Origin: Stentor roeselii
Taxonomy: Eukaryota; Ciliophora; Heterotrichea; Heterotrichida; Stentoridae
DNA length: 64,000 bases
Reading direction: 5' to 3'
Assembly (NCBI GenBank): GCA_006503475.1
Contig: RSEH01000163.1
Location: forward strand, 45,830-109,829
Below are positions 1 through 60,079 of this stretch, in pieces. The position numbers were made by a program, and so were the translations under genes. Positions within the stretch are counted from its first letter, which is position 1; the number at the start of each line of letters is the position of its first letter. Below the pieces are notes generated by a model. It saw nothing but the letters and a program-made list of their open reading frames with translations, was not told the DNA's origin and did no database searches.

Positions 1-1
1 A

Positions 2-226
2 AAAGAATTGATTATAAAACAAAGTATGCACTATTTTGCTATACTAAGTAAAGATTTTAGATTAGTATGCCATTCAAAGCAGATAAATATACTGGATTAC
101 AATTCAAAAAGAGAATTATTATCACAATTGAGTAAAGAAAATAGTAGTATTGATATAAGCAAGGACTACTTAATAATAGATCATTATTATAAAAACAACT
201 TTGAAAAGAAATATTTTGCGTTTTGA
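2..226 (+). CDS. C-terminal end of a class C GTPase-like protein (5' part outside window)
   Basis: The frame is open from the first bases and ends in TGA at 224-226, so this is the last ~74 codons of a gene beginning upstream. It matches the C-terminal domain of the complete class C proteins here: a strand, a YNSK-x-EL helix start (compare YNSKEELIDII in the gene at 5238) and a closing YLIIDHYYK-type strand. Function of this domain is unknown. The ATG at residue 8 is internal to the domain and is not a credible start. It is one of only two clear TGA stops among the genes of the window. The next gene, a class A GTPase, follows 179 bp downstream on the same strand. Confidence 0.8.
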   Translation, partial: KELIIKQSMHYFAILSKDFRLVCHSKQINILDYNSKRELLSQLSKENSSIDISKDYLIIDHYYKNNFEKKYFAF

Positions 227-382
227 GCGTTCAATAAGTTAATGCTTATTATAATTTAGCATTGAATTATATTGATTTATTTATATATTGTTGAATATTT
301 ATATAATAAACCAAATTCAACTCATTTAAATCTGATGCAGTCTTACTATATAATCTATATAAAAATATATATTTAAACAAAT

Positions 383-388
383 GTCTAC
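383..388 (+). promoter_or_regulatory. GTCTAY upstream motif
   Basis: GTCTAC 18 bp before the ATG at 406. The same hexamer (GTCTAC or GTCTAT) lies within about 15-60 bp of many starts in this window; a core-promoter or initiator role is inferred from position only. Confidence 0.4.
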
Positions 389-405
389 TATAATAAAAAT
401 TGTAA

Positions 406-1791
406 ATGTCCATAAAAGCCTTAAAAACAAATGAGCCTATTGAACCATACGACTACAGCTTATTACTTATAGGAGCAAGTGGGAATGGAAAATCAACATT
501 TCTGAATACTTTTGCCAATTTTAACCTTTATAAAACTCCAATAAATCTAGTTCCGATTATATCATGCAAGAAATATCCTATAGTTCCATTTGAATATCAG
601 GATGATCTTCCTGAAAAGAATGATCCTCAAACAGGCAAAAGCCAAACAAAGCATGCTCATTTCTATAAAATCAGAAGTAAATACACCAAAAATAAAACCA
701 TTTTAATTGTAGACACTCCTGGACTTGCATCATCAGGTGGTGTAAATGAAGATGACTTGAATGTAAATACAATAATCGATGCAGCTAGAAGAGTGAAAAG
801 CTTCAATGCAATAATAATTCTAGAAAAATCCAGCACTAACAGACTGAATCCACTAATCGAATATAATCTGTTTAGAATCTCAGAGATCATACCTTTTGAT
901 TTTGAAAATAGATGTATTCTTGCTTTTAGTTTTTATACTGGAGATATTCTGTTTGAGGATGAATGGTTTCCTTTTCCGATACAATTTAAAATAAAATTAA
1001 ACAACTCAATATTTTCTTTGTCAGGACAAGAATATAAAAATAAACAGAAAAAACTTAATGAGGCATTAATTACATGGAAAAATCTTAAAAAATCATTCAA
1101 AAAATTTCTGTTGAAATTAGAAAATTTAAATAGCATCCCAACTGAGCAATACAAGGAATTGTTCAGGGCTCACAATGAACTCAATATAAAATTTGCTGAG
1201 TATAAAGTTTTGATTGAAAATATCGAAAAAGTAAAACAATCTATTACCAGTAATCAAACCGAAAGAATAAAATTAATGAGTTGGGAAACTACTGATTATT
1301 ACAATACAATGTGTCGTGAGCATAAAGTTATATGCCATGAGCGCTGTCATTTGAGTTTAAATGAACAAAATGGTACTGACTATTTTAATAATTGTGCATG
1401 CATGAATATTGATAAAAAATGCAGAGTATGCAATTGTGGGTCATTTACTCATTTTCACATATTTAAAAAACCTACAATCCAGTCAAGAACTATTGAAGAA
1501 TTTCTGGGTAGTTTATCAATCAATCCTAGCGTTAATACAAAGAATGAAATAGATCAAGCACTTAATGCAAAGGAAACGGAATTGATTTTTGAATTAGTCA
1601 AGGTAGAAACTTCAATATCAAGAATTTCACCAAATTATAAAATTTCAGACTATGTTAAGAAAGCGATTCGTCATCTTGATTATACTATAGAGCTAAATAA
1701 ACCCGGAACAAATATTGAAGATGTATTAATTCAAAAAAGAGTTTTTGAAAGACTGGCAAATGGATGGGGAAAACAATTTCAAAGAACTTAG
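406..1791 (+). CDS. class A P-loop GTPase with C-terminal Cys/His module
   Basis: 461 aa. The G domain is N-terminal: Walker A/G1 GASGNGKS at residues 23-30, a GKSQT switch (likely G2 Thr at 81), DTPG (G3) at 103-106 followed by a Ser/Gly-rich loop, LEKSSTNR near 139-146 at the G4 position, and FSFYTG near 174-179. A helical stretch follows, then a Cys/His module at about 300-350 (CREH, CHERC, CACM, CRVCNC, THFH) that probably binds zinc, then a helical tail. GKSQT and DTPG-x-x-S-x-G resemble, from memory, an uncharacterised eukaryotic G-protein family known from fishes and invertebrates. GTP hydrolysis is inferred; partner and pathway are unknown. It is followed 65 bp later by a class B gene on the same strand. 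Stop is TAG. Confidence 0.9.
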   Translation: MSIKALKTNEPIEPYDYSLLLIGASGNGKSTFLNTFANFNLYKTPINLVPIISCKKYPIVPFEYQDDLPEKNDPQTGKSQTKHAHFYKIRSKYTKNKTILIVDTPGLASSGGVNEDDLNVNTIIDAARRVKSFNAIIILEKSSTNRLNPLIEYNLFRISEIIPFDFENRCILAFSFYTGDILFEDEWFPFPIQFKIKLNNSIFSLSGQEYKNKQKKLNEALITWKNLKKSFKKFLLKLENLNSIPTEQYKELFRAHNELNIKFAEYKVLIENIEKVKQSITSNQTERIKLMSWETTDYYNTMCREHKVICHERCHLSLNEQNGTDYFNNCACMNIDKKCRVCNCGSFTHFHIFKKPTIQSRTIEEFLGSLSINPSVNTKNEIDQALNAKETELIFELVKVETSISRISPNYKISDYVKKAIRHLDYTIELNKPGTNIEDVLIQKRVFERLANGWGKQFQRT

Positions 1792-1856
1792 ATTATTTAT
1801 AAATGGATTCGCTTTATACAAAATATTTCTTATTAAATTTTAAATCTATAATAAAA

Positions 1857-3212
1857 ATGAACAAAAGTACTCCTCCAGAAACGCGCTTCTCTCGACTGAA
1901 TAATAATCAAATCAGTCTATCATCTGATGAAAATTTCATGGTTTCAGAAGATTATGTACAGAAAAGCCACTACGATAAAAAAATAATGATAATAGGAGAG
2001 GCTGGCTCGGGGAAATCAAGTCTTTTAAACATGATAATTAATTTAAGTAAACAAAAGAAACTAAAGGAACTGGTTAAACCTGCAATCAACGAAATGAATG
2101 TTAAAGATAAAATAAGTGGTAAAATAAAAACTATAACAAAAGAAGTTCAATATTTTGAAATTGAATACAGTGGTTTTAAATTTCTTTTAATTGACACTCC
2201 TGGCTTCGAGGCAAACTTGATTGAATCATCCGACAATAGGAATATTGAAGCAATATTAAAAGTTGCTACAATTTTAAGCACTTTATCCATATTTCTTGTA
2301 ATAAAGAGTGATCAAATTTATCTTAACTCAAGTATATCAAAAAATATCAAAGATTTACTTCGATCATTTGATCAATTTGAAATAAAATATGATATATATT
2401 TGGTTTTTACTTTTTATGCAGGTAATTTAGAATTCGAAATAAATTCATTACAGTTAATGAATCTTAAAAAAAAGGAAATTAAAATCAATAATAAATTTTT
2501 CAATATAAACAGAACTAAACTTGAGAGAGGAAATTTTGATGCTGATTATGAAAATATATTGAAATCAATAAAAAAATTATTAGATAACTTTTATGAACCT
2601 GCAACAGAGCAAAAATTTAGAATCAAGATCATGTCTATAGGGGAAAATCCTGTGATAAAGAGATTAATTAAAAATCATAAAATTGAAATAGTAGAACACA
2701 AGAACTTATTATGTATTAACTGTGAAACTATTTGTCAATCAAAAATTCAAGTAAATTCATCAGGATGCTTTCCAGAAACATTCCAAAATAATTGTAAATG
2801 CGGGCATAATGAAGAAACTCATTATATTACAGATATAAAAATAAAGAAAAAAAATGATATAAAACATGAAGAGATAAATAAAGGACAAAAATACTCAGAA
2901 AATAGTATGCATATCATTAATTCGAATGCCTTAGAACTAGAAAAAAATCTTAAAAATACAATTAAGAATAATACAAATGAATTAAATAATTTAAAAAACC
3001 CTATAAAAGGAATTATTGAGGCTAGCCCAAATCTTAAAGATAAAATGATAGAATCTAGAAAGGATGATAAATCAAACTATCATAAATCAAAAATTGATAA
3101 TCAAATGAAAAATAATACTCTCAATCAAAACAAAAAAATCGAACCTATAAATAAAATGATCGTAACCAAAAAAATTAAACCTAGCACTCCACAAAAACCA
3201 AAAAAAAAATAA
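1857..3212 (+). CDS. class B P-loop GTPase with zinc-like module and basic tail
   Basis: About 451 aa from the ATG at 1857. An in-frame ATG at 1803 would add 18 residues, but the paralogue at 19734 aligns from 1857 (both begin M-x-x-S-x-PP), so the later start is preferred. G1 is GEAGSGKS at 47-54, DTPG at 113-116, IKSDQ at the G4 position, and FTFYAG follows. A Cys/His cluster at about 286-325 (CxxC, C, CKCGHNEETH) suggests zinc binding. The last ~120 residues are Lys/Asn-rich, low complexity and strongly basic, ending in a Lys run, so nucleic-acid or membrane contact is possible but not shown. It lies 65 bp after the class A gene on the same strand. The only relative in the window is the broken copy at 19.7 kb. 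Stop TAA. Confidence 0.88.
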   Translation: MNKSTPPETRFSRLNNNQISLSSDENFMVSEDYVQKSHYDKKIMIIGEAGSGKSSLLNMIINLSKQKKLKELVKPAINEMNVKDKISGKIKTITKEVQYFEIEYSGFKFLLIDTPGFEANLIESSDNRNIEAILKVATILSTLSIFLVIKSDQIYLNSSISKNIKDLLRSFDQFEIKYDIYLVFTFYAGNLEFEINSLQLMNLKKKEIKINNKFFNINRTKLERGNFDADYENILKSIKKLLDNFYEPATEQKFRIKIMSIGENPVIKRLIKNHKIEIVEHKNLLCINCETICQSKIQVNSSGCFPETFQNNCKCGHNEETHYITDIKIKKKNDIKHEEINKGQKYSENSMHIINSNALELEKNLKNTIKNNTNELNNLKNPIKGIIEASPNLKDKMIESRKDDKSNYHKSKIDNQMKNNTLNQNKKIEPINKMIVTKKIKPSTPQKPKKK

Positions 3213-3545
3213 TGCCTTCGAGCTTTTATTATTATCTAATATAATTTTATACCTCTTAAATTTAATTTATGATTAAAGATTGTTGTGTTATTATCAAGAC
3301 ATATGCTCATGATTTCATAATATCAATTTAATCCAAGAATTCTACTGTTCTTATCATAACATCAAACTATTAGTATCATGATTTATTATTTTCATTAAAA
3401 TCCTATATAAAATATAATTATGAAGATTACAAAAATAATCTTCATTAGGATTGAAGATAATTTTCCATCCCATATAATATTCCTAGGATAATATAAATAT
3501 TAAGAATCCTTAATAAATGTTTGTCTATAAAGATTAATAATTATT
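3213..3545. other. convergent intergenic spacer
   Basis: 333 bp between convergent genes; A+T-rich, with no gene, RNA or repeat that I can recognise. Confidence 0.6.
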
Positions 3546-4925
3546 CTACTTTGACTTTTTAATTGATTGATGCAATTCGTGATATAACTTAATATCCTTT
3601 TTTATCTTGTCTAAGATTTCGGGATCTTTTTCTTTCTCAAGCTGAAATCTTAGATTTTCAATAGCTCTAGGTAAATATTCTGAAATTCTATATTTTGGGG
3701 ATATTAGATGCATATCCTTTTCAGTATTTAATAATGTTAATATAACTTCCTGCTGCTTCATTTCTAATTTATGGATAATCTCTTCGGTACTTGTGTTTAA
3801 GCTTATTATTTTCATTTCTTCCAATATCCCATTAATATCGCTTCTCTCTGACAATGGTTTCTTTTTCATGTGTACATGCTGTTCAGAACTACATTGGCAA
3901 ACTCTGCATCTTTTCTCAGCTCTTATCATGCAAAAACAATCTTCAAAGTATGCTGTTCCTGATGTTTCATTTAGTGCCAACGCACAGTCTTCATGACATA
4001 AAGTTCTATGCTCGGAGCATATTGTATTATAATAATCAGTCGAAACCCATCCGATAGTCATTATTGTTGAACTTGGATTTGATGAGGATAAAGCATTTTT
4101 ACATATTTCAATGTTTTCTAATAAGGTTTTGAATTCTGTAATTTTTTTCATGTTTATATTATATTGCTGAAATAAAAGAGAGTATTGAATAGCGGGAATA
4201 CTATTCATTTGATATAAATTCAATAAAAATTTTGTAAATTTTCTTTCGCTTCTTACCCACATATTAAAATGATCATTCGCCTTTCCAGGTTTACTTCTTT
4301 TAGTTTTATCAATTGAGAAAAGTAAGTTATTTATCTTAATTTTATATTTTATTGGAAATGGAAACCATTCATCTTCAAATAATACTTCACCCTCATTAAA
4401 AGTAAAAGCCATGACAACTCTAGATTCAAAATCTTTGGGAATAACTTGAGATATTCGGCAGAGATTGTACTCAACTATTGGATTCAATCTATTAGTACTT
4501 GATTTTTCTACGACTATAATCGCATTGAATCTGCCAATCTTAGTTGCACAATCTATAATAATTCCAATGTTCATATCATCTTCACTAATACCGCCAGTTG
4601 ATGAAATTCCTGGAGTGTCTACAATTAATATTGTCTTATTATCAGTAACTTTTGAACATACTTTGTAATAATGAGCATAAGTAGTTTGACTTTTCCCTGT
4701 TTTTTGGTCATTTCTTTCTTTTAAGCCATCATCAAATCTTGGATCTATATTCGGATAATTTTTTGATGCAACAGCTACAACAAAATTTTCAATTTTATTC
4801 CCTAGTAAATAATTAATAAAGCTATTCACAAATGTAGACTTTCCATTTCCACTTGCACCAATTAGGAGAATACTAAAATCAAATGGCCCAAGCGTCTGAG
4901 TATGCGGAATAGCTCTTGCAGTCAT
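3546..4925 (-). CDS. class A P-loop GTPase with C-terminal Cys/His module
   Basis: 459 aa from the ATG at 4925. The frame is open upstream to a TTG, but MTARAI at 4925 matches the starts of other class A proteins (MSARAI at 58928; ARAI after a short lead elsewhere). GASGNGKS at 23-30, GKSQT switch, VDTPG near 103, VEKSSTNR at the G4 position, then AFTFNEG where sisters have F-Y-x-G. The Cys/His module reads CSEH, CHEDC, CFCM, CRVCQC, HVHM. Its closest relative in the window looks like the gene at 406 (shared DEWFPFPI segment). It forms a head-to-head pair with the class C gene at 5238, 312 bp away. Stop TAG. Confidence 0.9.
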   Translation of the reverse strand: MTARAIPHTQTLGPFDFSILLIGASGNGKSTFVNSFINYLLGNKIENFVVAVASKNYPNIDPRFDDGLKERNDQKTGKSQTTYAHYYKVCSKVTDNKTILIVDTPGISSTGGISEDDMNIGIIIDCATKIGRFNAIIVVEKSSTNRLNPIVEYNLCRISQVIPKDFESRVVMAFTFNEGEVLFEDEWFPFPIKYKIKINNLLFSIDKTKRSKPGKANDHFNMWVRSERKFTKFLLNLYQMNSIPAIQYSLLFQQYNINMKKITEFKTLLENIEICKNALSSSNPSSTIMTIGWVSTDYYNTICSEHRTLCHEDCALALNETSGTAYFEDCFCMIRAEKRCRVCQCSSEQHVHMKKKPLSERSDINGILEEMKIISLNTSTEEIIHKLEMKQQEVILTLLNTEKDMHLISPKYRISEYLPRAIENLRFQLEKEKDPEILDKIKKDIKLYHELHQSIKKSK

Positions 4926-5237
4926 ATTTTTTATAATAATACAATAGAGTAGTAATAGCTGTATCAAAAATTTTAATTATATAGTCTATAGGATTATAAA
5001 AAATGTTTATTATTAGCAAGACTAGATTTATTACTTCAATATATGAAAAGATCAACAGAATACTCGATAGAATTAAACAATTCTTGTAAGGCTTATATAA
5101 ATTATTTCCTCAGTAGAAACTCTCTGTAATATTCTACCCTCCATATCGTTAATCTTTTCCCATACAATTCTAATCAAATAAGATAAAGGTACTTAACTAA
5201 AGAAATAATATAAAATTATATAAGTCTATATTATAAA
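4926..5237. promoter_or_regulatory. divergent intergenic region between class A and class C genes
   Basis: 312 bp shared upstream region. It carries GTCTAT at 5224-5229 facing the class C gene and another GTCTAT at 4984-4989 (reverse orientation relative to the class A gene). No reading frame of note. A bidirectional promoter is inferred from head-to-head layout, which recurs at 27.05 and 43.7 kb. Confidence 0.4.
5224..5229 (+). promoter_or_regulatory. GTCTAY upstream motif
   Basis: GTCTAT ending 8 bp before the ATG at 5238; one of nine similarly placed sites. Confidence 0.4.
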
Positions 5238-8200
5238 ATGAGCTTAAAAATGATAGAATCATGCAGAGAGCTTGATGAATATGTAAAAAAATACCATGAT
5301 CCCGCACTTCAGATATTTTTGGTAGAGGAAAAATCAACTGAAAATATTCAACTATCAGCCTTCATGATCAATTTTTATGATGAGTTTAATCTGCGCTGCA
5401 AAACATCCTATGATATTCAAAAAATAATTCAAGAAGGTATCAAAAATTATTATGTTGGAAGAAAAATACATATTTATAAAACTAATTCTTCTAAGATGAA
5501 AGATTATATAGTTGCAAACTGCTATACAATAGATATGGATGCTTTTGATCATAATATTTCTGAATTAATTGAAAACTTAACCAATGAAGTACTTGTAGTT
5601 TTTATTCATCGAAATGAAGTTAATATATCTAATAAATTGAATTTATTGACTAAGGTAGAAACAATTAGTATTATTTTCGATAATTATTCAACATATGATA
5701 ATATAAAATTAACTTATCATATATACATAAATACGTACTCTCAATATTTGGAAAAAATCAAAAAGATTATCGAAGCTATACATATAATATTTTCAAAAAA
5801 CAAAGAAAAAAATACTGAATACATGAAAAAAAATATTCATAAGCATAACTGTTTGATTGATTGTATAGATGAATTTATAGAAAAGAACTTTAATATGCAT
5901 AATTATTATGAATACCACATTAATGAAGAAAATTTTAATATATACAATCCTGACTATTTTAAAAAAGATTTATTTCCGAAAATATCTTATAATGGTCCAA
6001 AATTAGTAGGTTGCTATCAAAATTGTTCAGATAAAGATTCACAAAATCTTTTTTTATTTCTTGATAAATTTATTGAATCTAAAACAATCTGCCCTAAATG
6101 TAATACACCTATTTCAGATCATATATTATCACCGTATACAATAAAACCGTGCTCTCTGATAATCACCTCTATGTATTTAATAAATAAAAAAAATTCTTTG
6201 ATTGAAAGATTAAAAACTAGTTCGTCAGAACATGAAGAATCATACAATAAATTAAAAAAAGAAATTGATGAATTACAGGTAAAACTTTATAACTTAAGTA
6301 ATAAAAGTGATCAAAACGATAGATTATATCAAAAAAATGATAAAATAAGAGAAGTAAAAGATGAATTTATTAATGTGATTAAAGAAAAAGATTCTGAAAT
6401 TGCGACCCTTAAAAAAGAAAAAATCGAATTTATGAAGGTAATTGAAGAAAAAGATTCTGAAATCGCAACCCTGAAAAAAGAAATATCAAAACTGAAAAAA
6501 AATAAAATTGAAAATTTTAAAATACATGGAACTGAATGTAATCAAGAAAATTTAGAAACAGATAAAGCTTCAAAAAATAATAAAGAAGAGGAGCTAAATG
6601 ATAAGAAAACCAATAATGTCTTGAAACCTACGCAAGTAGAAAAGACAAATAATAAATTTAGACAAATAGTTTTAGTAGCGGATGCAGGAAGTGGAAAAAC
6701 AACTCTTATAAATCAAATAATAAATATTTTAATGGATAATGATATACATGATCAATTTGGAATGAAAGAATTAATAGAACAAAAAAAGATTTCATTCAAA
6801 AGTTATGAATTTGGAGATTCTTACAAATTCAAATCTATGAATGATCAAATATGTTATGAATTTATAGAAACAAAAGGATTCATTCAAAAATTGGGAAATA
6901 CTATTGATCAACAAAATGTATCTAAAGCAATTCAAGCGATTGAATATATTTCAAATGGAACAATAATTTTTGTGCAAAAATCTGACACTTACAATTCAAG
7001 TTTATCAATTTTAGAGATTCATAAACATATTCTTAACCTAAAAAGTAATACACACAATTTTAAATATCGATTGTGTTATGTATTTACATTTCATGCTGGA
7101 GATTTGATATTTATTGTAAAAAACTTAAATTTTATACCAGATATACAAATCAAGGTTAATATAACTAAGATATGTGGAATGAACAAAAATAAAATTGAAA
7201 AAATTCGAAAACACTGGGAGAAATCAAAAAAATGTATTTTGAAATTAATAAACAAGGTGAATATTGGCATGACTGATGAGGAAACTGAAAAACAATTTAA
7301 TGTTATGAATAAAAATCGTTATGAAAATGAAGAGCTACTTTCAATTATTAATGAATCTAAGGAAAATATTTGTATGGTATTAGGCAACAATATAGAATTT
7401 AAATCTGGTAATAATCAGGCATTTTTTGAGTATAGGATTGAGAATAATGTTCCCATTTTAATATCAAAGATATTAATTGATGAAGAAAACAAAGAGAAAT
7501 CCTTTCAATATATAATAAACTATATAAATTATAAAAAAAGTAAAGAAAGTAATCAATTTTATCTCACAGACCAAGAGCTGAAAAATCAAAAAAAATCTAA
7601 GCAATTAAAAAATATTTTATTATTTACATTATTTCAAGAAGAGAGAATTGAAGAAAATTTGAGAAAATTAACAGCGAAAAAATCTGAAAAGTACTTCTTA
7701 TATAATAAAGCAAATATGGAAATCTGTCATATTCTTGATTGTGATCAACAATATGCAGAATCAGAAGGATCTTGGCCTATTTGCAATTCACAATATGCTC
7801 ACTTTTGTTATACTTGTCATTCGAAAATTCATGATACCCATTATATTTCTAATATTCTAATATATGATCAATTGAATAATGAATTTGTATTGCAAACTAA
7901 GTCCAACACAAGCAGTTTAAAGCAACTCTACAATCCTTCCAACAAACGGAGAATTGAACAAAATGATGAAGAAGTTATCAATTACATTGAAAAGAATATA
8001 AATATCAAGAAGGAAGTTCTTAAAGATGAATTTATAATATTAACAAAAGATTATGAATATGTGTGCAGAACAGATAAAATTGATGAGATGGATTATAATT
8101 CTAAAGAAGAATTAATCGATATTATTAGAAGTAAAAACAAATTGGGATATGATTTTGAAAACCATAATATAATTATTCAATGCATTTTCAAAAGTAATTT

Positions 8201-8252
8201 TGGAGGAGAATATTTCACTAGAAGTAAGAATAGAGCTAAAATTGGGGTCTAA
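5238..8252 (+). CDS. class C large GTPase-like protein (alpha/beta domain, two zinc knuckles, coiled coil)
   Basis: 1,004 aa. In order: an N-terminal alpha/beta region (LQIFLVEE strand, later VLVVFIHR strand), a C-PKC-x4-H knuckle followed by a Cys at about 285-310, a coiled coil at about 320-430 with a repeated EKDSEIATLKKE, a G domain, then a C-terminal half with a second CxxC-x4-H knuckle (CYTCHSKIHDTH) and the YNSKEEL terminal domain. Walker A is ADAGSGKT at 481-488, so the first Gly is Ala. The G3 motif is ETKG instead of DTPG, while FVQKSD at G4 is kept. Nucleotide binding is plausible; hydrolysis is doubtful. An alternative ATG at 5250 matches the start of the paralogue at 11703. Unlike that paralogue it needs no intron. 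Stop TAA. Confidence 0.9.
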   Translation: MSLKMIESCRELDEYVKKYHDPALQIFLVEEKSTENIQLSAFMINFYDEFNLRCKTSYDIQKIIQEGIKNYYVGRKIHIYKTNSSKMKDYIVANCYTIDMDAFDHNISELIENLTNEVLVVFIHRNEVNISNKLNLLTKVETISIIFDNYSTYDNIKLTYHIYINTYSQYLEKIKKIIEAIHIIFSKNKEKNTEYMKKNIHKHNCLIDCIDEFIEKNFNMHNYYEYHINEENFNIYNPDYFKKDLFPKISYNGPKLVGCYQNCSDKDSQNLFLFLDKFIESKTICPKCNTPISDHILSPYTIKPCSLIITSMYLINKKNSLIERLKTSSSEHEESYNKLKKEIDELQVKLYNLSNKSDQNDRLYQKNDKIREVKDEFINVIKEKDSEIATLKKEKIEFMKVIEEKDSEIATLKKEISKLKKNKIENFKIHGTECNQENLETDKASKNNKEEELNDKKTNNVLKPTQVEKTNNKFRQIVLVADAGSGKTTLINQIINILMDNDIHDQFGMKELIEQKKISFKSYEFGDSYKFKSMNDQICYEFIETKGFIQKLGNTIDQQNVSKAIQAIEYISNGTIIFVQKSDTYNSSLSILEIHKHILNLKSNTHNFKYRLCYVFTFHAGDLIFIVKNLNFIPDIQIKVNITKICGMNKNKIEKIRKHWEKSKKCILKLINKVNIGMTDEETEKQFNVMNKNRYENEELLSIINESKENICMVLGNNIEFKSGNNQAFFEYRIENNVPILISKILIDEENKEKSFQYIINYINYKKSKESNQFYLTDQELKNQKKSKQLKNILLFTLFQEERIEENLRKLTAKKSEKYFLYNKANMEICHILDCDQQYAESEGSWPICNSQYAHFCYTCHSKIHDTHYISNILIYDQLNNEFVLQTKSNTSSLKQLYNPSNKRRIEQNDEEVINYIEKNINIKKEVLKDEFIILTKDYEYVCRTDKIDEMDYNSKEELIDIIRSKNKLGYDFENHNIIIQCIFKSNFGGEYFTRSKNRAKIGV

Positions 8253-8457
8253 TAAATAATGAGTAATAAGATATATAAATATAGTCTAGTTAAACTCTTG
8301 ATATAATAATTATGAATCTAATTCATTATATATAAAATAATTTTTTCTAGTATGAATAAAATACAAGTCTAATAATTCTTGATTGATAATATAATGTCAT
8401 TACTCTTCTTGAAAAACTATTGTTTGAAGTATATTCAATTTTTAAGTGAAATATAAT

Positions 8458-9369
8458 ATGGGGTTATGTTGTATTAAATCAGAATCTGAAGATGAAGAGC
8501 ATATTGTTGAAACAAAAAACAACAATCGTAAAGATTCTAATGCTATATCTCCACCTAAAATTGTCGAAATGAAGAATATTGAGGATGATAAAAAGAATAT
8601 AATTCAAGAAGAACGTAAACAAATGAAAAAAAATGAACAAAAACTAGTAATTCCTTCAAATTTATCTGAAAAACTAAAGCAGGCTGATAAAACTTTAATA
8701 GTTTTCGGAGAAGAAGGATCGGGAAAAACAGATTTAATCAAACTATTACTAAATTCAATTGAAAATAATTCTATAGAAAATATTCGATTTAGTGCTGGAA
8801 AAAATGTAGACTACCTCTTAGATTGTCAATTTTTTATTGAAGATCCAGAGTCTAATCTTACAATTGATAGGAATAGATCAGTTTCGACTAGAGGATTAAG
8901 ATTTTACTTTCATGATAATGTTTTATTTGAGGACAAAAAAACAAATAAGTTACTGATTATAGATACACCAGGGATTATTATTGATAGAACTGCTAATAAA
9001 GATGAGGAAGTAATTCAATTAATTGTAAAATCATTAGAAATTAGTAAAAAACCAATCATGCTCTTTGTTCAGAAATCAGATTCGAATTGCTTATATCATT
9101 CAGTTTATTCTTCTTTGGATGAAATTTCAAAATATCTGAAGAATAAAGATTGTCCTATTCTTATTGCATTAACATTTTATGCAGGATCTGCAGTATTCAC
9201 TAAAAAAAGTTTGCCCTTTGATCCTAATTTAATTAAGAAAAAATTTAAGTTCAACAATTTAATTTTTTCATGTCTAGATAATCACAAAAAACGTATGAAA
9301 TTTGCTTCAGAGTATGAAAAATCCAAAAAAAAGGCTTATAAACTTTTGAATTATGCATTTTCGTTATAA
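8458..9369 (+). CDS. class D compact GTPase with N-terminal MG-Cys motif
   Basis: 303 aa from the ATG at 8458; an upstream in-frame GTG is not a credible eukaryotic start. The protein begins MGLCC, as in the class D gene at 38672 (MGIGCCC), suggesting N-myristoylation and/or palmitoylation and membrane attachment; residue 6 is Ile, so myristoylation is less certain here. A charged linker of ~75 residues leads to G1 GEEGSGKT at 84-91, a TRGLRFY segment, DTPG, then FVQKSD and ALTFYAG. The protein is essentially only a G domain and lacks a Cys/His module. Another class D gene follows 168 bp downstream on the same strand, indicating tandem duplication. Stop TAA. Confidence 0.9.
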   Translation: MGLCCIKSESEDEEHIVETKNNNRKDSNAISPPKIVEMKNIEDDKKNIIQEERKQMKKNEQKLVIPSNLSEKLKQADKTLIVFGEEGSGKTDLIKLLLNSIENNSIENIRFSAGKNVDYLLDCQFFIEDPESNLTIDRNRSVSTRGLRFYFHDNVLFEDKKTNKLLIIDTPGIIIDRTANKDEEVIQLIVKSLEISKKPIMLFVQKSDSNCLYHSVYSSLDEISKYLKNKDCPILIALTFYAGSAVFTKKSLPFDPNLIKKKFKFNNLIFSCLDNHKKRMKFASEYEKSKKKAYKLLNYAFSL

Positions 9370-9537
9370 TTACATCGAAATATAATATTAAAGTAATTAC
9401 TTAAAAAGTGTTAACTGTTATTTATATATTTTTATTATTTTTTAGAAATAGACTACCTACTAAGTTTTATAATTATTCAAAGAAACAAATCGATCATCAA
9501 ATGTATAAATTTTATATGATTATTAATTATCTTAATA

Positions 9538-10500
9538 ATGAATTGCAAAAGACTTTTACATATTCTGAGTTGTGGTCTATTGTATCCAAAGCTTCAAGAT
9601 TCAGCATCAGATAACGAGAAAACTTCTTTGATTGAATCCCAAAAAACTGAATATTACGAATCTTTAGGAAAAGCAGAAAATACTGATGAAATAAAAATTC
9701 AAGGTGGCACTGAATCTCTTAGAAATGATCAAAGGGATTTCGAGAAAATGTTGCAAGAAAATAAATTAGAAATCGATCAGAGAATACTATTGAAATTAAG
9801 TGAGGCAGATGCTATTATTCTTATAATTGGAGAGGAAGCATCAGGTAAAACAACTTTAATAAAAGCCATACTTAATGCAATCGAAAATACAACTCTAGAG
9901 ACTGTTAAGTATATTTTATGCCCAAATGTCGACTATTTACCTGATTGTAATCAACTTCTGCAGAGTGAAAATGTTGAATTAAATTATAATTCTAAAAAAA
10001 CAACTTTTACGAAAGGATTAAGATTTTATTATCATGAAGATTATATTGTTTCAAATGATACGGAATTCCAAAAGAAAAAAATCTTGATTATTGATACTCC
10101 AGGAATTTTAATAGACAGAGATAATACTGTTGATTATGAAACTATTTTATTGCTCAAGCAGTCCCTTGATTTATCCGATAAAATTAATATATTGTTTACT
10201 AAAAAATCAGATGAGAAAGACTTTTATCCCTCAGTTATGAAGTCTTTAAATGAATTGGCTCCTTTTATAAATAAAAAACAGTGCCCAGTGTATATTGCAT
10301 TAACATTTTACGCAGGTACTAAAGTTTTTAATGAGGATTTTCTTCCTTTTGATAAATATCTTATAAAAAAAGTATTTACTTTTGAAAATTCAATCTTTTC
10401 AGTAGAAAATAATATGAAGCAGATAAAAAATAAATCAGGAAAGCTTGATAAAGGAGCTTATAAGGCGAAAAAACTTTTAAATACCATCTTAACTAATTAA
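9538..10500 (+). CDS. class D compact GTPase (tandem copy)
   Basis: About 320 aa. G1 is GEEASGKT at 98-105, then TKGLRFYYH, IDTPG, FTKKSD at G4, and ALTFYAG, all in class D order. The N-terminus is the weak point: the ATG at 9538 gives MNCKRLL rather than the MG-Cys start of its sisters, and the region before ~residue 40 matches nothing here, so the true start or a small upstream intron may be missed. I found no clear 15-nt GT...TAG intron that restores an MG start. It lies 168 bp after its tandem neighbour on the same strand. Stop TAA. Confidence 0.82.
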   Translation: MNCKRLLHILSCGLLYPKLQDSASDNEKTSLIESQKTEYYESLGKAENTDEIKIQGGTESLRNDQRDFEKMLQENKLEIDQRILLKLSEADAIILIIGEEASGKTTLIKAILNAIENTTLETVKYILCPNVDYLPDCNQLLQSENVELNYNSKKTTFTKGLRFYYHEDYIVSNDTEFQKKKILIIDTPGILIDRDNTVDYETILLLKQSLDLSDKINILFTKKSDEKDFYPSVMKSLNELAPFINKKQCPVYIALTFYAGTKVFNEDFLPFDKYLIKKVFTFENSIFSVENNMKQIKNKSGKLDKGAYKAKKLLNTILTN

Positions 10501-27093: not shown

Positions 27094-27106
27094 ACATATA
27101 ATAATA

Positions 27107-43665: not shown

Positions 43666-43705
43666 TTTGAATATTTTATTTATATTTTTAAACATATTTT
43701 TTCGT

Positions 43706-49500: not shown

Positions 49501-49711
49501 TGATGATTTTTTAATATTCAGAAACAGTAAAATACTTTATGGAATGAATGAAGAATATAAAATTATTGAGAAAAAAACACAAACTATACTTAGAGAATGT
49601 GATACTACTGACAAACTTATTTCATATTTTAACGCTAAAAATTCATCAGATAAAGTTATATATATAATCGATGGAGAATTTAATTACAAGAATGGTAATA
49701 ATGTTTACTAA
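46532..49711 (+). CDS. class C large GTPase-like protein with tandem-repeat coiled coil
   Basis: 1,059 aa. Alpha/beta N-terminus (VEIIIFYE, FNLIDIQ, LIVIFFYQ strands), knuckle CFECGKNYNIH at about 271-281, then a coiled coil made of 25-residue repeats (KLEETKIESENKLKYSQQEI plus LELKT) at about 314-410. G1 GEAGSGKT at 524-531, ETPG for DTPG, FVQKSD with CSSI, TYYVG. The second knuckle CSYCNQEFKNHA and a terminal domain with C-DTTDKLISYF follow. Mirror partner: 21255, which has no such repeat array, so the coiled coil expanded after the duplication. Stop TAA. Confidence 0.9.
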   Translation: MHIESNIHLEQNIKNIVEIIIFYEARISANQFSEYLEESLERNNGEITYKKNDFLNESNFLEENNYNKNPKFCKNDKNYIIPFTFNLIDIQNCDEIMANEIENRHNQLIVIFFYQSNYVNHKVDYFKKRKPFQLRYLNTVNNESKISELIDNISLELRNEFEIIEISFKNSVNYFQQYFNQILKENFTAFKNSFKANADEVINLKNRFTKFIENEANKNNFFYINKIKDYYFAYNMMSDKFCFKIQQNKKINLLSFRFSEWLKYDSYCFECGKNYNIHKFSKFYLEKSKTVEDYTKLVNILIPQIAKLRMFITKLEETNIENESKLKYSQQEILELKTKLEETKIESENKLKYSQQEILELKTKLEETKIESENKLKYSQQEILELKTKLEEANIENEKKLKYSEELKFEYNNNTKKEPYKEINKTFQRSKSLNMESTDNSKLKENNCILASGCDFSEANKYNEKDISLINEYIHFLTKKIIDNCLKDIDLDKHSMNIDSKIEFEIKFKKIKNSENLKRFIFIGEAGSGKTTVINRIINFLLDRKLEDQLDIDSLLQNNHIFIEKNSFGIIYYVKGEADNIYQFIETPGINVSLGNKLDEENIKKSIDCLNQIESDNFRIIFVQKSDFYNPCSSIIFIHEYLVKLYSNSLNKLFRISYVFTYYVGSLLFDIKLLKFSPSCVIKLNLCNLIDIKSEKLPKFKKSFLLSYKKIKKLLHKNNTDINKNEFNQQFLLLAEVSQSSVDCIAEKKSSSDLKYEFNEQCSNHLDVTETKTNLMQENQEINNELNTLIEMTEKDCKILLNDNLMVDFKAQTYFIFEINKKKGKISPKNITKIILNEKSINESNQEVLRFYKSRNIKSDIFYLSRSLKLANQIQINYFIVFIEQSKIKVKKYLSQISKHKSEDYYLVNIKKFIICQKNISCMWLYKIKKDVRVCSYCNQEFKNHAVTKSIYRNPMNKEILKGNKVEKKGNFERFDDTKPEKYLEDTFFNDDFLIFRNSKILYGMNEEYKIIEKKTQTILRECDTTDKLISYFNAKNSSDKVIYIIDGEFNYKNGNNVY
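47471..47755 (+). repeat. 75-bp in-frame tandem repeat in a coiled coil
   Basis: Units at 47471, 47546 and 47621 with a partial fourth at 47696. Units 2 and 3 differ by very few bases. Each encodes 25 residues, in frame, in the coiled coil of the class C gene. Confidence 0.9.
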
Positions 49712-49997: not shown

Positions 49998-50190
49998 TAG
50001 CTACATTTTTTTGTGATTTATTGAAATATAATAAAAATCACAAAGTCTATCTTTTTTACAATTCACCTCCATTTTTTTACTCTAGAAAATTTTAATTTCT
50101 CATGGTAATTTTAATCTATGCTTTGTGATTGTTGTGGAAATAAAATAAAATCACAAAATCTATCTTTTTTATATTTCACCTACATTTTTT
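49998..50190 (-). repeat. dispersed GTAGGTCAAT repeat, copy 5
   Basis: Reverse-orientation units: GGAGGTGAATTGTAAAAAAG near 50050-50070 and GTAGGTGAAATATAAAAAAG near 50163-50182. TTTGTGATTT at about 50011 pairs with AAATCACAAA at about 50035, a clear short inverted repeat. It marks the outer edge of the right arm. Confidence 0.75.
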
Positions 50191-50546
50191 TGACTACAAA
50201 ATTTTGTTACTTTTCAAAATAGATTCATGAAAATTTCAAGTGATTCATTTGTGTTCTTTTAGTGTATATATATAAAAAATTTTCGATTTTCTATTTGTTT
50301 ATGCACTTTTAGCTACTATAATAAATTATATTCTAATAAATCATATAAAACTAGTTATTGGGAAATTTCAAACTATCATTCTTGTTATTGGAGTTTGTTT
50401 GGATAGCTATGATGCTTATAAAGTTATTTGAATGATTCTAATTAAAGAACATACTTTTCTCAAAAAAGTAATTAGGATAATTTTTATCAATCAATTAATA
50501 GGGTATGCAATAATCATTCTGTACTACTCTATATCACGATTTTATT

Positions 50547-52862: not shown

Positions 52863-54629
52863 TTATTCTTTATTTTTTATAAATAATTTTTCATTAAATT
52901 CTAAAGACTTACAAGTTATAATAAAATCATCATCAACATGTCCTGAACGATTTTTTATTTCTTTTTTATAATTTTCTTCATCTTCTTCGAGGGTCAAAGT
53001 TTTGTGATATTTAAATTCTAGTTTCTTTGGCTCTTTTGTATATAAAAAATAAGATTCCTCACTAGGATAATAAAATAATCCTTTTGTTTCAATTTCTAAA
53101 GAATTAAATTTTGCTTTTGAGCGAATGATATATGAAAGTATAACTTTAAACTTTTTTTTATATACTTTCCAAAACTTATTGATAACTACTTTTGTAAATT
53201 TAAGTTCGTATTTTGTATTTTCATCGATTACTGTAATAATTTTCTTTAATTTTTTATCAGTATGATTCCAATTTTTTTCTAACTTTGAGCTCTTTTTAGG
53301 ATTAATAACTTGATTAATATTGATATTGTTTATTTTTATTATTTCATTTGGGGTAAAGACCAAAGAATCTAAAGAAAAATTTAAACTACCCACATAATAT
53401 GAGAAAATATAATAAACCATAAAATTCGGTTTTTTAATGTATAACCTAAGGATTTCATCATGTATTTCCTTGATAGTATTATTTGATTCAAGGAAATCAG
53501 ATTTTTGAACAAATATTATATTATTGTTATTGCAAGTCATATATTCAATACCCCTTGTTGCATTTTTTAGATTTTTTATATCTATTTCTTTTCCTAACAA
53601 AGAACAAATGCCAATAGTTTCTATAAACTCATAGCTTTTGTTATTAGCAGTATTATGATAGTAGTAGGAAGTGCCAAAGTCATGATTATATTCAAAAAAT
53701 TTTATCTCATTGATTTCCTTTAATTTTTCTATAGTTAAACGTTCATTATAACTTTTTTTCATCATTGAATTTATAATTCCCAAGATCACTGAAGTTTTTC
53801 CACTTCCTTCTTCACCAATAAATACCATTTGTGTTAAATTTCCATCTTCTTTTAGTTGATTATAGAAATTTATATAATTATAAGAAGGATCAGCAGTTTG
53901 AAAACTGGAAGACATAGAGGATTCTTTTTTATGTTCAGTTGTTTCTTTTTTTCCTTCTAATTGTTTTTGGGTAGTATCTGAGTTAGTTGTAGATTCAACT
54001 CCTTTTTGATTATTTTCTAATGGAAGCACTTTCTCTTCAATATTCAATTTATCTCTCGAATGACTTGGATAATTAAAGCTTTCAATTTTAGTTGGATCAT
54101 CAATAAGATCAGATGATTCAGGTTTTGATGAATCAATAAATTCTCTCCACTCAAAAATGGATTTTTTTAATATTTGATAATGCTCAAAAAAAATACCATC
54201 ATTATTAAAATTGAGATTTTGTTCAAGCCCTAAGAATTTTTTTGATAAATTTTCACTATCAAAAGTTAGATTGCATTTAATTCTTATCGAAGTGGTATTT
54301 TGAAGCAACTCCCTTTTAAAATGAATTTCACTTTTATAATCAATTAATATCACTATTATTTTATTCGGTGTTTTCTCAATTAAATCTGCATATTCTGCAT
54401 TGAAATCAATTAAATTTACGGTGAAAAATGATAATAGTTCTTGTTTCGGGTTTTCACTATCATTATTACTTTTTCCAGTATCTAAACAATTTTTCATGAA
54501 TTCAGAAAAAAGTGCTTTTGAAGGATCAAGCTCTTCTACTAAAATAAATTTGGGTATTGGTCTGCAATCTTCCTCTAAAAAACTCTTGAATTTCATATAA
54601 TCATCTGAAAAGTTAAGATCTTCAGCCAT
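52863..54629 (-). CDS. class C GTPase-like protein, short form without knuckles or coiled coil
   Basis: 588 aa. N-terminal alpha/beta domain (FILVEELD, FTVNLIDF, KIIVILID strands), a Ser/Thr/Glu-rich linker at about 170-245 in place of the knuckle and coiled coil, then G1 GEEGSGKT at 272-279, ETIG for DTPG, FVQKSD, SYYVG. It ends after a SGHVDDDFIITCKSLE segment and lacks the second knuckle and terminal domain. The decayed homologue at 32470 still shows the terminal domain, so this gene has probably lost its 3' end. GTCTAC is 17 bp upstream. Stop TAA. Confidence 0.87.
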   Translation of the reverse strand: MAEDLNFSDDYMKFKSFLEEDCRPIPKFILVEELDPSKALFSEFMKNCLDTGKSNNDSENPKQELLSFFTVNLIDFNAEYADLIEKTPNKIIVILIDYKSEIHFKRELLQNTTSIRIKCNLTFDSENLSKKFLGLEQNLNFNNDGIFFEHYQILKKSIFEWREFIDSSKPESSDLIDDPTKIESFNYPSHSRDKLNIEEKVLPLENNQKGVESTTNSDTTQKQLEGKKETTEHKKESSMSSSFQTADPSYNYINFYNQLKEDGNLTQMVFIGEEGSGKTSVILGIINSMMKKSYNERLTIEKLKEINEIKFFEYNHDFGTSYYYHNTANNKSYEFIETIGICSLLGKEIDIKNLKNATRGIEYMTCNNNNIIFVQKSDFLESNNTIKEIHDEILRLYIKKPNFMVYYIFSYYVGSLNFSLDSLVFTPNEIIKINNININQVINPKKSSKLEKNWNHTDKKLKKIITVIDENTKYELKFTKVVINKFWKVYKKKFKVILSYIIRSKAKFNSLEIETKGLFYYPSEESYFLYTKEPKKLEFKYHKTLTLEEDEENYKKEIKNRSGHVDDDFIITCKSLEFNEKLFIKNKE

Positions 54630-54645
54630 AGTTAATAATTATAAT

Positions 54646-55379: not shown

Positions 55380-56010
55380 CAGATCAACTGGCGAAAGGTT
55401 GATGATATGAAGAGCAAGCATTAGGAAAAAGTTAATAAAACTTATTTTATTCTTGAGAAGAATTATTATAATAATATTCGATTTATTACAAGGAGAGATC
55501 GATTATCTTGAAAAAATGAACTTTCTATAGATGAACATCAGTAATATCAGCAATAAGATAACTGAATCCCCTGTAACAGAAGATAAAGTTTTGACATTCT
55601 GGAAAAGATTTGGGAGAAAAGTTTCTTTTTTAGATACTCCTAGATTTACAATAAACGAATTACCTATAAGACGATGAATTTATTTAATTGATCAAAGAAT
55701 CTCTTGAAATCGGTAAAAATCCTCTTGTAATATTTATTGAGAAAATCAATTCATATAGGCTATTTTTCTTGGTTTTTCCCTCTTTGAGGCTATTCAAATG
55801 TATTAATTAAAATTTTTCTCAGTCTTATAGAATTAGTGTGCTATTTATATACAAAGTTTTTAAAGATTAAGTCAACTTTCTGAAGGAAATTCAATTATAG
55901 GACAATCTTTTTTTAATAAATCTGTTTTTAGATGTTTATAGAATTATCAAAGACTGTAAAATTAGTCTAAGAATATATCAAGAACTGGATAAAAGCAAAA
56001 ACCTTTTTAA
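55380..56010 (+). pseudogene. heavily decayed class D GTPase
   Basis: Pieces in class D order but in shifting frames: EEQALGKS (P-loop) near 55410, LDTPRFTINE (from DTPGFTIDR) near 55637, LIDQRISEIGKNPLVIFIEK near 55685-55745, and a SYRLFF...SLRLF stretch. The P-loop variant ALGK is shared with the pseudogene at 34573, pointing to common descent of these two copies. Confidence 0.65.
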
Positions 56011-58500: not shown

Positions 58501-58625
58501 GAATCTATCTTTTTGATATATCATCTCCATTTTTAAGTTACAAATATTTGTATATAAGATAAGAGAGAATAAAAAAATACTTTCTGAATCTATCTGTAAG
58601 ATATATCACCTCCATTTTTAGGTTT
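58501..58625 (-). repeat. dispersed GTAGGTCAAT repeat, copy 6 (divergent)
   Basis: Two reverse units, GGAGATGATATATCAAAAAG near 58512-58531 and GGAGGTGATATATCTTACAG near 58594-58613, about 83 bp apart and each preceded by GAATCTATCT on the plus strand. Confidence 0.6.
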
Positions 58626-58881
58626 ACAAATTTATATATACAAGACAAGAGAGAATCGAAAATAATTTGGTAACGTGATGTGATAATTTGATACTATCAA
58701 AATAAAACATTTACAATTCATCGGATAGTTAATAAAGGCTTTAGATATATGATCCTTTCTTATCCTAATTATTAAGAGTTTTCTGTTATTTTTAAAAGAT
58801 CTTTCAAACCTTGTGATATTTTCTAAAATTAATTTGATTTAATAAGCATAAACACATTAAATTTTTGTTTGCTCAAGTAGA

Positions 58882-58887
58882 GTCTAT
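58882..58887 (+). promoter_or_regulatory. GTCTAY upstream motif
   Basis: GTCTAT 41 bp before the ATG at 58928, in the context GAGTCTATATTTTATG. Confidence 0.4.
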
Positions 58888-58927
58888 ATTTTATGTATAT
58901 AGAAATATGGTAAAATTCCATATATAA

Positions 58928-60079
58928 ATGTCAGCAAGAGCTATTCGTCCTAATGAACAATTAGAACCCTTTGATCATAGTTATTTATTTATAGGACCAA
59001 TTGGGAGTGGAAAAACTCAAACGATAAATACAATAATAAATGTGCTTCTAGGAAACAATTTCGATAATTGGATTCAAATAAATAAAACAAAAAACAATCA
59101 TGAAATAGATCCAAGATTTGATGATGGCCTAATCGAATCTTCAGTAAGATGTGGTGAGACAAGACATGCTCATTTTTATAAAGTAACTTCAAGTCTTATA
59201 CAAAATAAAACAATATTACTTGTTGATACTCCTGGTTTGGGAAGTTTAGATAGTATTAGCGAAGATGATCTAGTTATTAATATAATTTTTAATGCATCAA
59301 TACGTATAAGGGAATTAAGTGCAATAATTTATGTTGAAAAATCATCTACAAACCGTCTAAATGAAACTACTCGATATTGTCTTCAACGACTTAATTCAGT
59401 AGTTCCGAGAAATTTTGAAAGTCAAGTATTTATTTGCTTTAATTTTTATGCCGGTTGTATTAGTTTTGAAGATAAATGGTTTCCTTTTACTATTCAAGGA
59501 AAAATAAAAATTAATTATATTTCCAACATTGACAGACTTGAGAAAAAGAAAAGAATTGAAAACATTTTACCCGATATCACAAAATCTACTTTAAAGTTTC
59601 TAGGCAAAACTAGTTTATTAAATAAATATTCAACTCAACAATATGAGTCAGCTCAACAGACCTATAATAATATAATTCAAAATATAAACAATTATTCTAT
59701 AATACTGAAAAGTATTGAAAATTGCAAGAAAGTGCAAATAACAACAAATTCGAAAGAAAAAGGAGAAATAATTGATGAATTGTTTAGACACTTTCAAGAA
59801 AATAACATAAATTTAGTTGGTATTAATAAAAGTTTAAATATTGATACAAATTTATTAAAAAACAAACTCGAAGATATCTTATCAGAAACAATCTTAAAAT
59901 TCCACGATTATGAAAGGGTGCTATCTGCAATACTACCAAAATGGAAGTTATCTGATTACTTTAGTACTAGTATAAATTATATGCTGTACTTTATCAATAA
60001 TCATTATTATCATTCTAAGAATATTGAAGAAACTAGATCTGTTTTAGATTTTTATAGTCATATTCAATCAAAGTTATAA
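58928..60079 (+). CDS. class A GTPase lacking the Cys/His module
   Basis: 383 aa. MSARAIRPNEQLEPFD lead, G1 GPIGSGKT at 23-30, a GETRHAHFYK switch (others GKSQT), VDTPG, VEKSSTNR, NFYAG, and DKWFPF after it. Sister proteins carry a ~60-residue Cys/His module after the SIENCK-type helix; here the helix runs directly into the C-terminal helical tail (KWKLSDYF, matching KISDYV-type segments elsewhere). The module is cleanly absent and the frame is intact, so this is either an in-frame deletion or an ancestral form. Loss of zinc binding is certain if the module binds zinc. Stop TAA. Confidence 0.88.
   Translation: MSARAIRPNEQLEPFDHSYLFIGPIGSGKTQTINTIINVLLGNNFDNWIQINKTKNNHEIDPRFDDGLIESSVRCGETRHAHFYKVTSSLIQNKTILLVDTPGLGSLDSISEDDLVINIIFNASIRIRELSAIIYVEKSSTNRLNETTRYCLQRLNSVVPRNFESQVFICFNFYAGCISFEDKWFPFTIQGKIKINYISNIDRLEKKKRIENILPDITKSTLKFLGKTSLLNKYSTQQYESAQQTYNNIIQNINNYSIILKSIENCKKVQITTNSKEKGEIIDELFRHFQENNINLVGINKSLNIDTNLLKNKLEDILSETILKFHDYERVLSAILPKWKLSDYFSTSINYMLYFINNHYYHSKNIEETRSVLDFYSHIQSKL

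Follow-up and report, generated by a model that had tools for sequence, protein, structure and literature searches.

The 64,000-nucleotide stretch analysed here (the window), which corresponds to positions 45830-109829 of contig RSEH01000163.1 in the Stentor roeselii assembly GCA_006503475.1 (contig C74 below) and reaches the end of that contig, is macronuclear DNA of a heterotrich ciliate and holds a multigene array. The genes of the array are built on one P-loop domain that has a GTPase fold and is not a standard G domain, and, judging from gene order and sequence identity, the copies multiply by direct and palindromic block duplication and then lose modules or decay. A short promoter element, GTCTAYA, is common to two gene classes of the array (A and C) and to genes with an RNF213-like RZ finger, which suggests one shared regulon. 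The explanation proposed as a whole, namely a divergent GTPase-fold array joined with RZ-finger genes in one regulon and used for coat-forming, cell-autonomous defence, is tentative, its chances falling somewhat short of even. A literature search limited to the open-licence set of PubMed Central (PMC) found no paper describing this array.

The genome surveyed comprises 44.39 Mb in 522 contigs, and the whole-genome match counts given below are lower bounds. A three-unit pattern of the telomere repeat CCCTAACA gave 547 overlapping matches genome-wide, against 0 for the reversed pattern, and the approximately 100 places listed are contig starts, or contig ends where the length is known. The telomeres of Blepharisma are described as permutations of CCCTAACA (PMC9942806), and Stentor as having the standard code and 15-16-nt introns with a branch A at position 10 or 11 (PMC9505925). 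Heterotrich genomes use the standard code or one with TGA as Trp. In the genome surveyed, conserved 15-nt introns with an A at position 10 were found in class C genes of the array, and under the standard code array genes read as open frames and alpha- and beta-tubulin each form one open frame. The alpha-tubulin presumably resembles those of ciliates. The telomere repeat, the heterotrich-type introns and the standard code therefore identify a heterotrich genome, in agreement with the original prediction, made from the sequence alone, of a ciliate system.

Genes were called by six-frame translation and self-tblastn. Within 60 kb, this approach identified seven genes of class A, two of class B, eight of class C and three of class D, as well as five relics, one of them weak. 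All classes rest on the same P-loop domain: class A adds a Cys/His module, class B a basic tail, and class C an N-terminal domain, knuckles and a coiled coil, while class D is short and has N-terminal cysteines. Fifteen genes are open (A1, A2, A3, A4, A6, A7, B1, C1, C2, C4, C5, C7, D1, D2 and D3) and five are damaged (A5, B2, C3, C6 and C8); the predicted count of at least 13 intact and about seven broken genes thus stands as a lower bound. An open frame is not equivalent to a functional gene, as C5 has the P-loop GSGKL instead of GSGKS/T and A7 is without the Cys/His module. The array had been placed at positions 1-60079; it is real, but it extends past position 1. Its features in the window are as follows.

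1-217, plus strand: 3′ end of C14 (class C), with the gene start near C74:43536 and exon 2 from C74:43656, upstream of the window
406-1791, plus strand: A1, P-loop domain and Cys/His module, open
1803-3212, plus strand: B1, P-loop domain, remnant Cys module and basic tail, open
3546-4976, minus strand: A2, class A, open (PF04548 28.0 against a cut-off of 27 bits)
5214-8252, plus strand: C1, N-terminal domain, knuckle, coiled coil, P-loop domain and C-terminal knuckle, intronless
8446-9369, plus strand: D1, P-loop domain alone, start MGLCC
9520-10500, plus strand: D2, P-loop domain alone, start MNCKRLL
11703-11819, plus strand: C2 exon 1, ending in QQFSIFF
11820-11834, plus strand: C2 15-nt intron, GTAATATTTATTTAG
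11835-14972, plus strand: C2 exon 2
15229-17205, minus strand: C3, C-terminal domain lost (exon 2 15229-17073, 15-nt intron 17074-17088, exon 1 17089-17205)
17929-18387, plus strand: relic of the von Willebrand A (vWA)-like gene that ends contigs C334 and C358, 70-73% identical in two pieces
19704-20519, plus strand: B2, class B truncated after the P-loop domain, with a tail-like open reading frame next at 20781-21092
21255-49711, no strand: ancient palindromic block duplication, arms at about 21.2-30.6 and 40.1-49.7 kb, axis at about 35.4 kb
21255-24362, minus strand: C4, left palindrome arm, sister of C7
24652-27048, minus strand: C5, left arm, sister of C6, with KIQG in place of DTPG/ETPG
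27092-28498, plus strand: A3, left arm, sister of A6; the frame opens at the preceding stop and the first Met is internal
28762-30129, minus strand: A4, left arm, sister of A5
31846-31902, minus strand: class D relic, a weak match (19 residues, E 0.006) whose position mirrors that of D3
32541-34209, minus strand: decayed class C copy, closest to C8
34712-34912, plus strand: class D relic
38672-39526, plus strand: D3, start MGIGCCC
40649-42088, plus strand: A5, right arm, sister of A4, interrupted by one in-frame stop
42307-43707, minus strand: A6, right arm, sister of A3 (PF04548 29.7 against 27 bits)
44303-46075, plus strand: C6, right arm, sister of C5, with an apparent frame break before the P-loop domain
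46460-49711, plus strand: C7, right arm, sister of C4
51431-52160, minus strand: class D relic with many stops
52863-54638, minus strand: C8, C-terminus truncated
55670-55786, plus strand: class D relic
58928-60079, plus strand: A7, class A without Cys/His module

Introns were considered as the cause of the gene breaks and rejected: none of the expected form is present in A5, and the one candidate found near each of B2, C6 and C8 is located past the stop codon, so that splicing would leave the stop in place. In-frame repeats were found in C3 (87 nt, 2 copies, 81%, 16124-16297) and in the coiled coil of C7 (75 nt, 3.7 copies, 94%, 47467-47743), and an intergenic dispersed repeat of approximately 100 nt occurs at 19039-19140, 30503-30606 and 50145-50225 as well as at C334:26597-26715, the copies being 77-79% alike.

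That the array rests on one homologous domain is evident from the motifs common to an alignment of 42 P-loop domains, which included members from contigs C334 and C358, two from the C74 flank and seven relatives elsewhere. Tree support was 100 for class C, 99 for class D, 99 for class B, 100 for the dispersed relatives O1-O4 and 100 for the split that sets class A apart; within class C, support is low at many inner nodes (28-54). The family PF01926 (MMR_HSR1) exceeded its 21.9-bit cut-off in nine of the 16 scanned window proteins (four of six in class A, both of class B, all three of class D and none of five in class C). The G1 motif is present in nearly all members, and G3 reads DTPG or DSPG in classes A, B and D (DTPR in A9). 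The beta-strand order used to place the motifs was taken from the model of A1; after beta-5, where NKxD (G4) would stand, the motif is absent in all classes of the alignment and TFYxG-like (T-[FY]-x-x-G-like) residues are found, whereas the end of beta-4 carries VQKSD, IKSD or EKSS in most members, a KSD/KSS that can be mistaken for G4. Of the single G domain originally predicted, the fold and its sharing among the classes thus hold, but with NKxD missing it is not a standard G domain.

Further changes fall on the phosphate-binding side. In class C, Glu replaces the Asp of DTPG in 13 of 14 genes and Lys replaces it in C5, and four P-loops are altered: the first Gly is Ala in C1, Leu stands for Ser/Thr in C5, Arg for Gly in C6 (GSRK) and Met for Lys in A9. 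Together with the absence of NKxD in all classes, these substitutions favour the explanation that nucleotide cycling has been lost and that the proteins, class C above all, form fixed nucleotide-bound or pseudo-enzyme dimers. Against it, Lys and Ser/Thr of the P-loop are retained in the remaining copies, so that phosphate binding is likely to persist in most of the family; this explanation is considered quite unlikely.

The A1 model (mean predicted local distance difference test score, pLDDT, 80) has the usual GTPase strand order, and its Foldseek comparison with the Protein Data Bank returned Toc34 (5.8e-6), GIMAP2 (5.5e-5), EngB (9.4e-5), GIMAP7 (1.3e-4) and EF-Tu (from 2.6e-4). The template-modelling (TM) scores by target length of the Toc34 and GIMAP entries in the first ten were 0.40-0.56, so that the predicted likeness of class A to Toc34/GIMAP is moderate, and on this model class A appears nearest to the Toc34/GIMAP branch.

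The accessory parts differ in how firmly they can be described. The class A module reads C-x2-[HC]-x3-C-H-x2-C ... C-x-C ... C-x2-C-x-C-x4-H-x-H; it is common to the dispersed relatives O1-O3 with small changes and probably ancestral. B1 retains a remnant of it, A5, A9 and A10 have lost it in part, and A7 has none. It gave no convincing Pfam match; the zinc family DUF8206 (C-x2-C-x3-CH-x2-C) is a possible lead. In class C, a 15-nt GT-AG intron stands at the same place in six of 14 genes (C2, C3, C9, C10, C12 and C14), the first exon ends in QQFSxxF-like residues, and in C1, C4, C7 and C8 the matching peptide is read through with no intron. As the first exon lies behind the intron, a stop-to-stop reading misses the start of the N-terminal domain, and the gene models of C2 and C3 were corrected in this respect. 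For the alpha/beta domain first predicted in class C, the model is of low confidence (pLDDT near 50 in this part), and neither a profile of 10 sequences nor Pfam gave a convincing structure or family match. A receiver (CheY)-like domain was also considered and rejected; after exon 1 was added the strand order was alike by eye, but the best profile match was ribosomal L5/uL18 (E 0.13) and no receiver family was found in Pfam. Class D N-termini carry two or three Cys within the first 25 residues in six of six genes, and none of the listed class A and B N-termini has such cysteines. The acylated N-terminus predicted for this class is accordingly consistent with the early cysteines of all six and with a Met-Gly start in three; Met-Gly is absent in the other three.

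The growth of the array can be read from its gene order. The sister pairs A3/A6, A4/A5, C4/C7 and C5/C6 are mirrored in order and lie on opposite strands, with midpoints at 35.36-35.68 kb; four mirrored pairs were reached in 24 of 200,000 within-class shuffles, a statistic chosen after the order had been seen. Inverted repeats join the arms outside the coding regions too (30465-30614 and 40115-40264, 80%). On contig C334, the genes A8, C9, D4, D5, C10 and C11 repeat the order and strands of the block A2, C1, D1, D2, C2 and C3, although a further gene, E, is interposed; with best-match identities of 26-60%, and with some genes finding their best match in a gene other than the positional partner, this colinearity is only suggestive. 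Mirrored pairs, inverted repeats, the C334 block order and damaged copies together bear out the birth-and-death pattern with module loss and direct and inverted duplication that had been proposed.

An assembly artefact or contamination was also weighed, as the assembly breaks at the ends of contigs C334 and C358 in a 1-kb stretch that is 95% identical between the two. This stretch carries the vWA-like gene (L054:7410-8291, L057:2064-2948), whose von Willebrand A-like region (E 0.011) is under the Pfam cut-off. Contig C358 starts with the genome's telomere repeat, the class C genes bear heterotrich-type introns, and the closest array pairs share 39-54% protein identity, too distant for alleles; an artefact is therefore scarcely credible. 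C334 was also rejected as an allele of the window, the aligned stretches being 66-79% identical in DNA.

Contig C358 also carries, at 1755-5285, one 1177-residue frame in which a coiled coil is joined to a tandem of class A domains; the P-loop lysine has been lost from the first domain. Over their initial 90 residues, the two domains share 87-93% identity in 30-residue windows, and beyond that 20-60%, a mosaic that looks like partial gene conversion. Such a conversion-like mosaic, together with multi-copy divergent paralogues and domain shuffling, would suit a family for self/non-self or mating-type recognition in conjugation. P-loop-type proteins usually act inside the cell, which counts somewhat against this explanation, and it is regarded as improbable.

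The relatives of the array are partly confined to the same contigs. A class C query against the whole genome gave at least 19 matches, gene pieces and two class B genes among them, and those listed are all on C74 and C334; a class D query gave at least six matches below 1e-40, the query included, again with those listed all on C74 and C334. Strong matches to a class A query lie on C74, C334 and C358 and weaker ones are dispersed, for example on C338, C233 and C502. The AIG1 family PF04548 also matches small separate clusters on C86, C374, C161 and C410, which consist mostly of frames of approximately 400-500 residues, some on opposite strands. By these matches, the array appears to be a single branch within a broader set of AIG1-like genes. 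Scans with two short peptide patterns each found no tblastn-confirmed prokaryotic or viral relatives for alignment A1 (viral and genome contigs) or for A3 and A2 (viral contigs). By fold, six viral models matched at E 0.001 or better, five of them from giant viruses and two named AIG1.

The original prediction had named diversifying selection among paralogues as a sign of an immune-type array, and the pairwise values obtained do not support it. By the Nei-Gojobori method (NG86), dN/dS was 0.24-0.73 and below 1 in 10 of 10 pairs, with dS of 0.48-1.63, so that the values are rough; by that of Yang and Nielsen (YN00), it was 0.28 and 0.30 in two of the 10 pairs. The sequences point to purifying selection with saturation, and pairwise dN/dS, no site-level test having been made, gives no sign of diversifying selection. 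Such values would also fit a septin-like or trafficking scaffold with an ordinary role (organelle scission, cortex or vacuole traffic) whose genes were spread by near-neutral block duplication, and the fold neighbours of class A, which include Toc34, EngB and septins and extend beyond immune GTPases, fit it as well. Five damaged and five relic copies and the loss of modules and P-loop residues are unlike a housekeeping set, as is a promoter element held in common with RZ-finger genes; a scaffold is a possible explanation, but a rather doubtful one.

The promoter element was found in the 400 nt upstream of 30 array genes (C6, B3 and the C358 genes, which have no clear start, were left out), where one 8-mer ranked top. 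Re-chosen on the 19 window genes alone, it was top again at 100, 200 and 400 nt, and among the 11 other array genes it occurred in 4, 5 and 5 (P 7.5e-6, 5.3e-6 and 9.7e-5), although the full set had already shown the 8-mer when this split was made. In the 100 nt before the start, GTCTAYA was present for 16 of 30 array genes and 0 of 32 control frames, and the shorter GTCTAY for 19 of 30 and 3 of 32, respectively; the controls are open frames of at least 150 residues in 20 loci, some antisense and perhaps not genes, with a G+C of 0.31 against 0.21 in the array. In 200 shuffles of the array promoters, a mean of 0.71 genes and a maximum of 4 carried GTCTAYA. The element occurs twice in 56.8 kb of control loci, and the class A relatives O1-O4, which are within the controls, have none. 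By class, it was found in five of eight A, 10 of 13 C, one of six D, neither of two B and not in the single E gene. The 11-mer TGTCTAYATTT has 336 sites genome-wide against 84 for its reverse, and 11 of its sites fall in the 145 kb analysed of C74, C334 and C358, approximately 10 times the genome density; the vWA-like gene that ends C334 and C358 has the element approximately 20 nt upstream. Two of the sites in the window are as follows.

27084-27094, minus strand: TGTCTACATTT, a single site lying between C5 and A3, which diverge, and scored for each of them
30153-30163, plus strand: TGTCTATATTT, upstream of A4

Another candidate motif, AAAAATGGAGGTG, which was the first to be considered, was rejected; it occurred 6 times against 2.6 expected, 4 of 100 shuffles were as high, and it is not clearly above chance.

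Outside the array, the element was sought at RZ-finger genes. The RZ finger gave nine genome matches over the cut-off, seven of them in open frames of 4326-5139 residues, and it lies near 85% of the frame length in the four genes with the start read. RNF213 is of a comparable size class. The gene adjoining the array, at C74:33711-40937, is a frame of 2409 residues whose RZ finger is weak (27.2 bits in one scan, against a cut-off of 27, and 21.8 in another). Upstream regions were read for five of the nine genes. At C36 and C106, the listed 11-mer sites lie 12.3 and 12.8 kb before the RZ finger, and 501 bases were read at each; both show a frame that is in phase with the RZ finger, and its first Met is preceded by GTCTAYA at 91 and 51 nt on C36 and at 118 nt on C106. 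At C154 and C138, whose predicted starts were read blind, it stands 282 and 149 nt before the first Met of in-phase frames. The element was thus present in four of the five genes read, or in two of three when those picked by a listed site are excluded.

The proposed explanation takes as the likely ancestral form a P-loop domain with a helical stalk and a Cys/His module, as in class A and the dispersed relatives. From this ancestor would have come the basic-tailed class B, the large class C, enlarged by an N-terminal domain, a coiled coil and zinc knuckles, and the short, Cys-rich class D, with a partly Met-Gly N-terminus. The proteins would form nucleotide-dependent dimers through the nucleotide face, as GIMAPs and septins do, and so build coats on a membrane or particle; class D would be anchored by acyl groups, class C would cross-link through its coiled coil, and the zinc modules would recognise either a target or a partner of ubiquitin type. 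Such coats would most likely be used within the cell to deal with bacteria or viruses, whether ingested or already intracellular. If one role has to be picked, it is cell-autonomous defence, given that RNF213 and GIMAP-type GTPases have this function in animals, RNF213 being described as interferon-induced and antimicrobial (PMC8595287, PMC12440826) and GIMAP-type GTPases as defence proteins (PMC7053062). The regulon may instead be one of stress, encystment or feeding.

Several observations weigh against this explanation. With the guanine motif lost, GTP may not be the ligand. EngB and EF-Tu follow closely behind Toc34 and GIMAP2 in the class A fold list; the class A profile (A1) matches septin-3 at 7.4e-4 over 43 residues, and its septin-3 and Toc33 matches span just 20-45 residues or so around the P-loop; and the class C model, built without exon 1 and with a mean pLDDT of 56, has EF-Tu and other GTPases, not GIMAP, as its top matches. 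The dN/dS values given above belong here too. As to the regulon, classes D and B are mostly without the element, and its sites are not independent, as A3 and C5 share one, palindrome partners inherit theirs and other genes come from shared blocks. Two of the four positive RZ genes (C36 and C106) were selected for a listed site at the expected distance, the sites at C154 and C138 are farther from the start than in most array genes, and the RZ-type gene of C74 has no GTCTAYA in the 261 nt read. The element could also mark any inducible set.

The array offers a delimited set of genes together with a specific promoter element and a family of candidate partner genes. Animals and plants are known to have immune GTPase clusters, and the array bears on whether protists use the same cluster logic. 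A more specific proposal, that of a protist inducible cell-autonomous immune programme in which paraseptin-type coat GTPases and RNF213-like giant E3 ligases stand under one promoter element, is unlikely as matters stand; if it were true, the pairing of a GTPase coat with RNF213 in vertebrate interferon responses would be ancient or would have arisen twice. The loss of the base-reading motif in all classes, with the phosphate loop mostly kept, raises the question of which nucleotide is bound, and palindromic block duplication with an intron present or absent among copies makes the array a clean case of birth and death in a somatic ciliate genome.

Among known systems, septins share with the array a profile match, that of septin-3 around the P-loop, and septins are reported from ciliates (PMC11238149). 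None of the 16 scanned window proteins passes the septin family PF00735, the best being B2 (26.1 against a cut-off of 26.2). The IRG and GBP families share the clustered, decaying and module-varied genomic style; no scanned protein passes PF05049 (IIGP), the best being A6 (19.2 against 24 bits). In the C74 flank, two GTPase-like genes on the minus strand (C74:6356-8440 and C74:11792-13612) form a 66% identical pair with the P-loops GEAGNFKSS and GRTGNFKSS and a DTEG motif; they have one other genome match, a weak piece on C293, and pass no Pfam cut-off. The pair resembles GBP by motif alone. Other GTPase types were also seen in the genome, including five Ras-type matches approximately 0.9 kb apart on one strand at C119:58721-62705, four of them with close scores (the genome has at least 150 Ras-type matches), and a 951-residue frame at a contig end on C317 (L064:3-2855) with GNTGSGKS and DCPGFND (PF01926 26.1 bits).

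Toc34 is the top structural match of class A, and Toc33 appears in the profile list through the P-loop region; the array differs in having a Cys/His module where Toc has a membrane anchor (no membrane-span search was made) and in having no plastid context. With RNF213, this genome shares an RZ finger inside giant frames; the likeness consists of the RZ finger and the frame size, and the C74 RZ-type gene has just 2409 residues.

The array was also compared with AIG1/GIMAP. Entamoeba is a protist of low G+C. An expanded AIG1 family is reported for it (PMC5884625, PMC6414313), and Biomphalaria GIMAPs are described as having tandem clusters, coiled coils and double-domain members, to which the array is alike, and an AIG1 domain that includes a conserved box (PMC7053062). 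The array differs from AIG1/GIMAP in its lack of G4, and its Cys/His module and class C N-terminal domain match no Pfam family. Between G3 and G4, where AIG1 proteins have their conserved box, most members carry KSD/KSS residues. None of 10 class B, C and D proteins (B1, B2, C1, C2, C3, C5, C7, D1, D2 and D3) exceeds the PF04548 cut-off, and among the six open class A proteins A2 and A6 exceed it while A1 (20.3), A3 (20.2), A4 (26.3) and A7 (18.7) fall under. The GIMAP-like cluster of the original prediction is thus weakened by the absent G4 and by a class C model that favours EF-Tu, and strengthened by the Toc34/GIMAP2 fold matches, by PF04548 in two of six open class A proteins and by the element common with RZ genes. 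The G1 and G3 motifs of AIG1/GIMAP are present in the array, with Glu in the G3 of class C, GIMAP2 and GIMAP7 are among the ten best class A structural matches, and the class A model has a predicted paraseptin fold; the likeness to GIMAP clusters gains some ground, and a role in defence is, by analogy, plausible.

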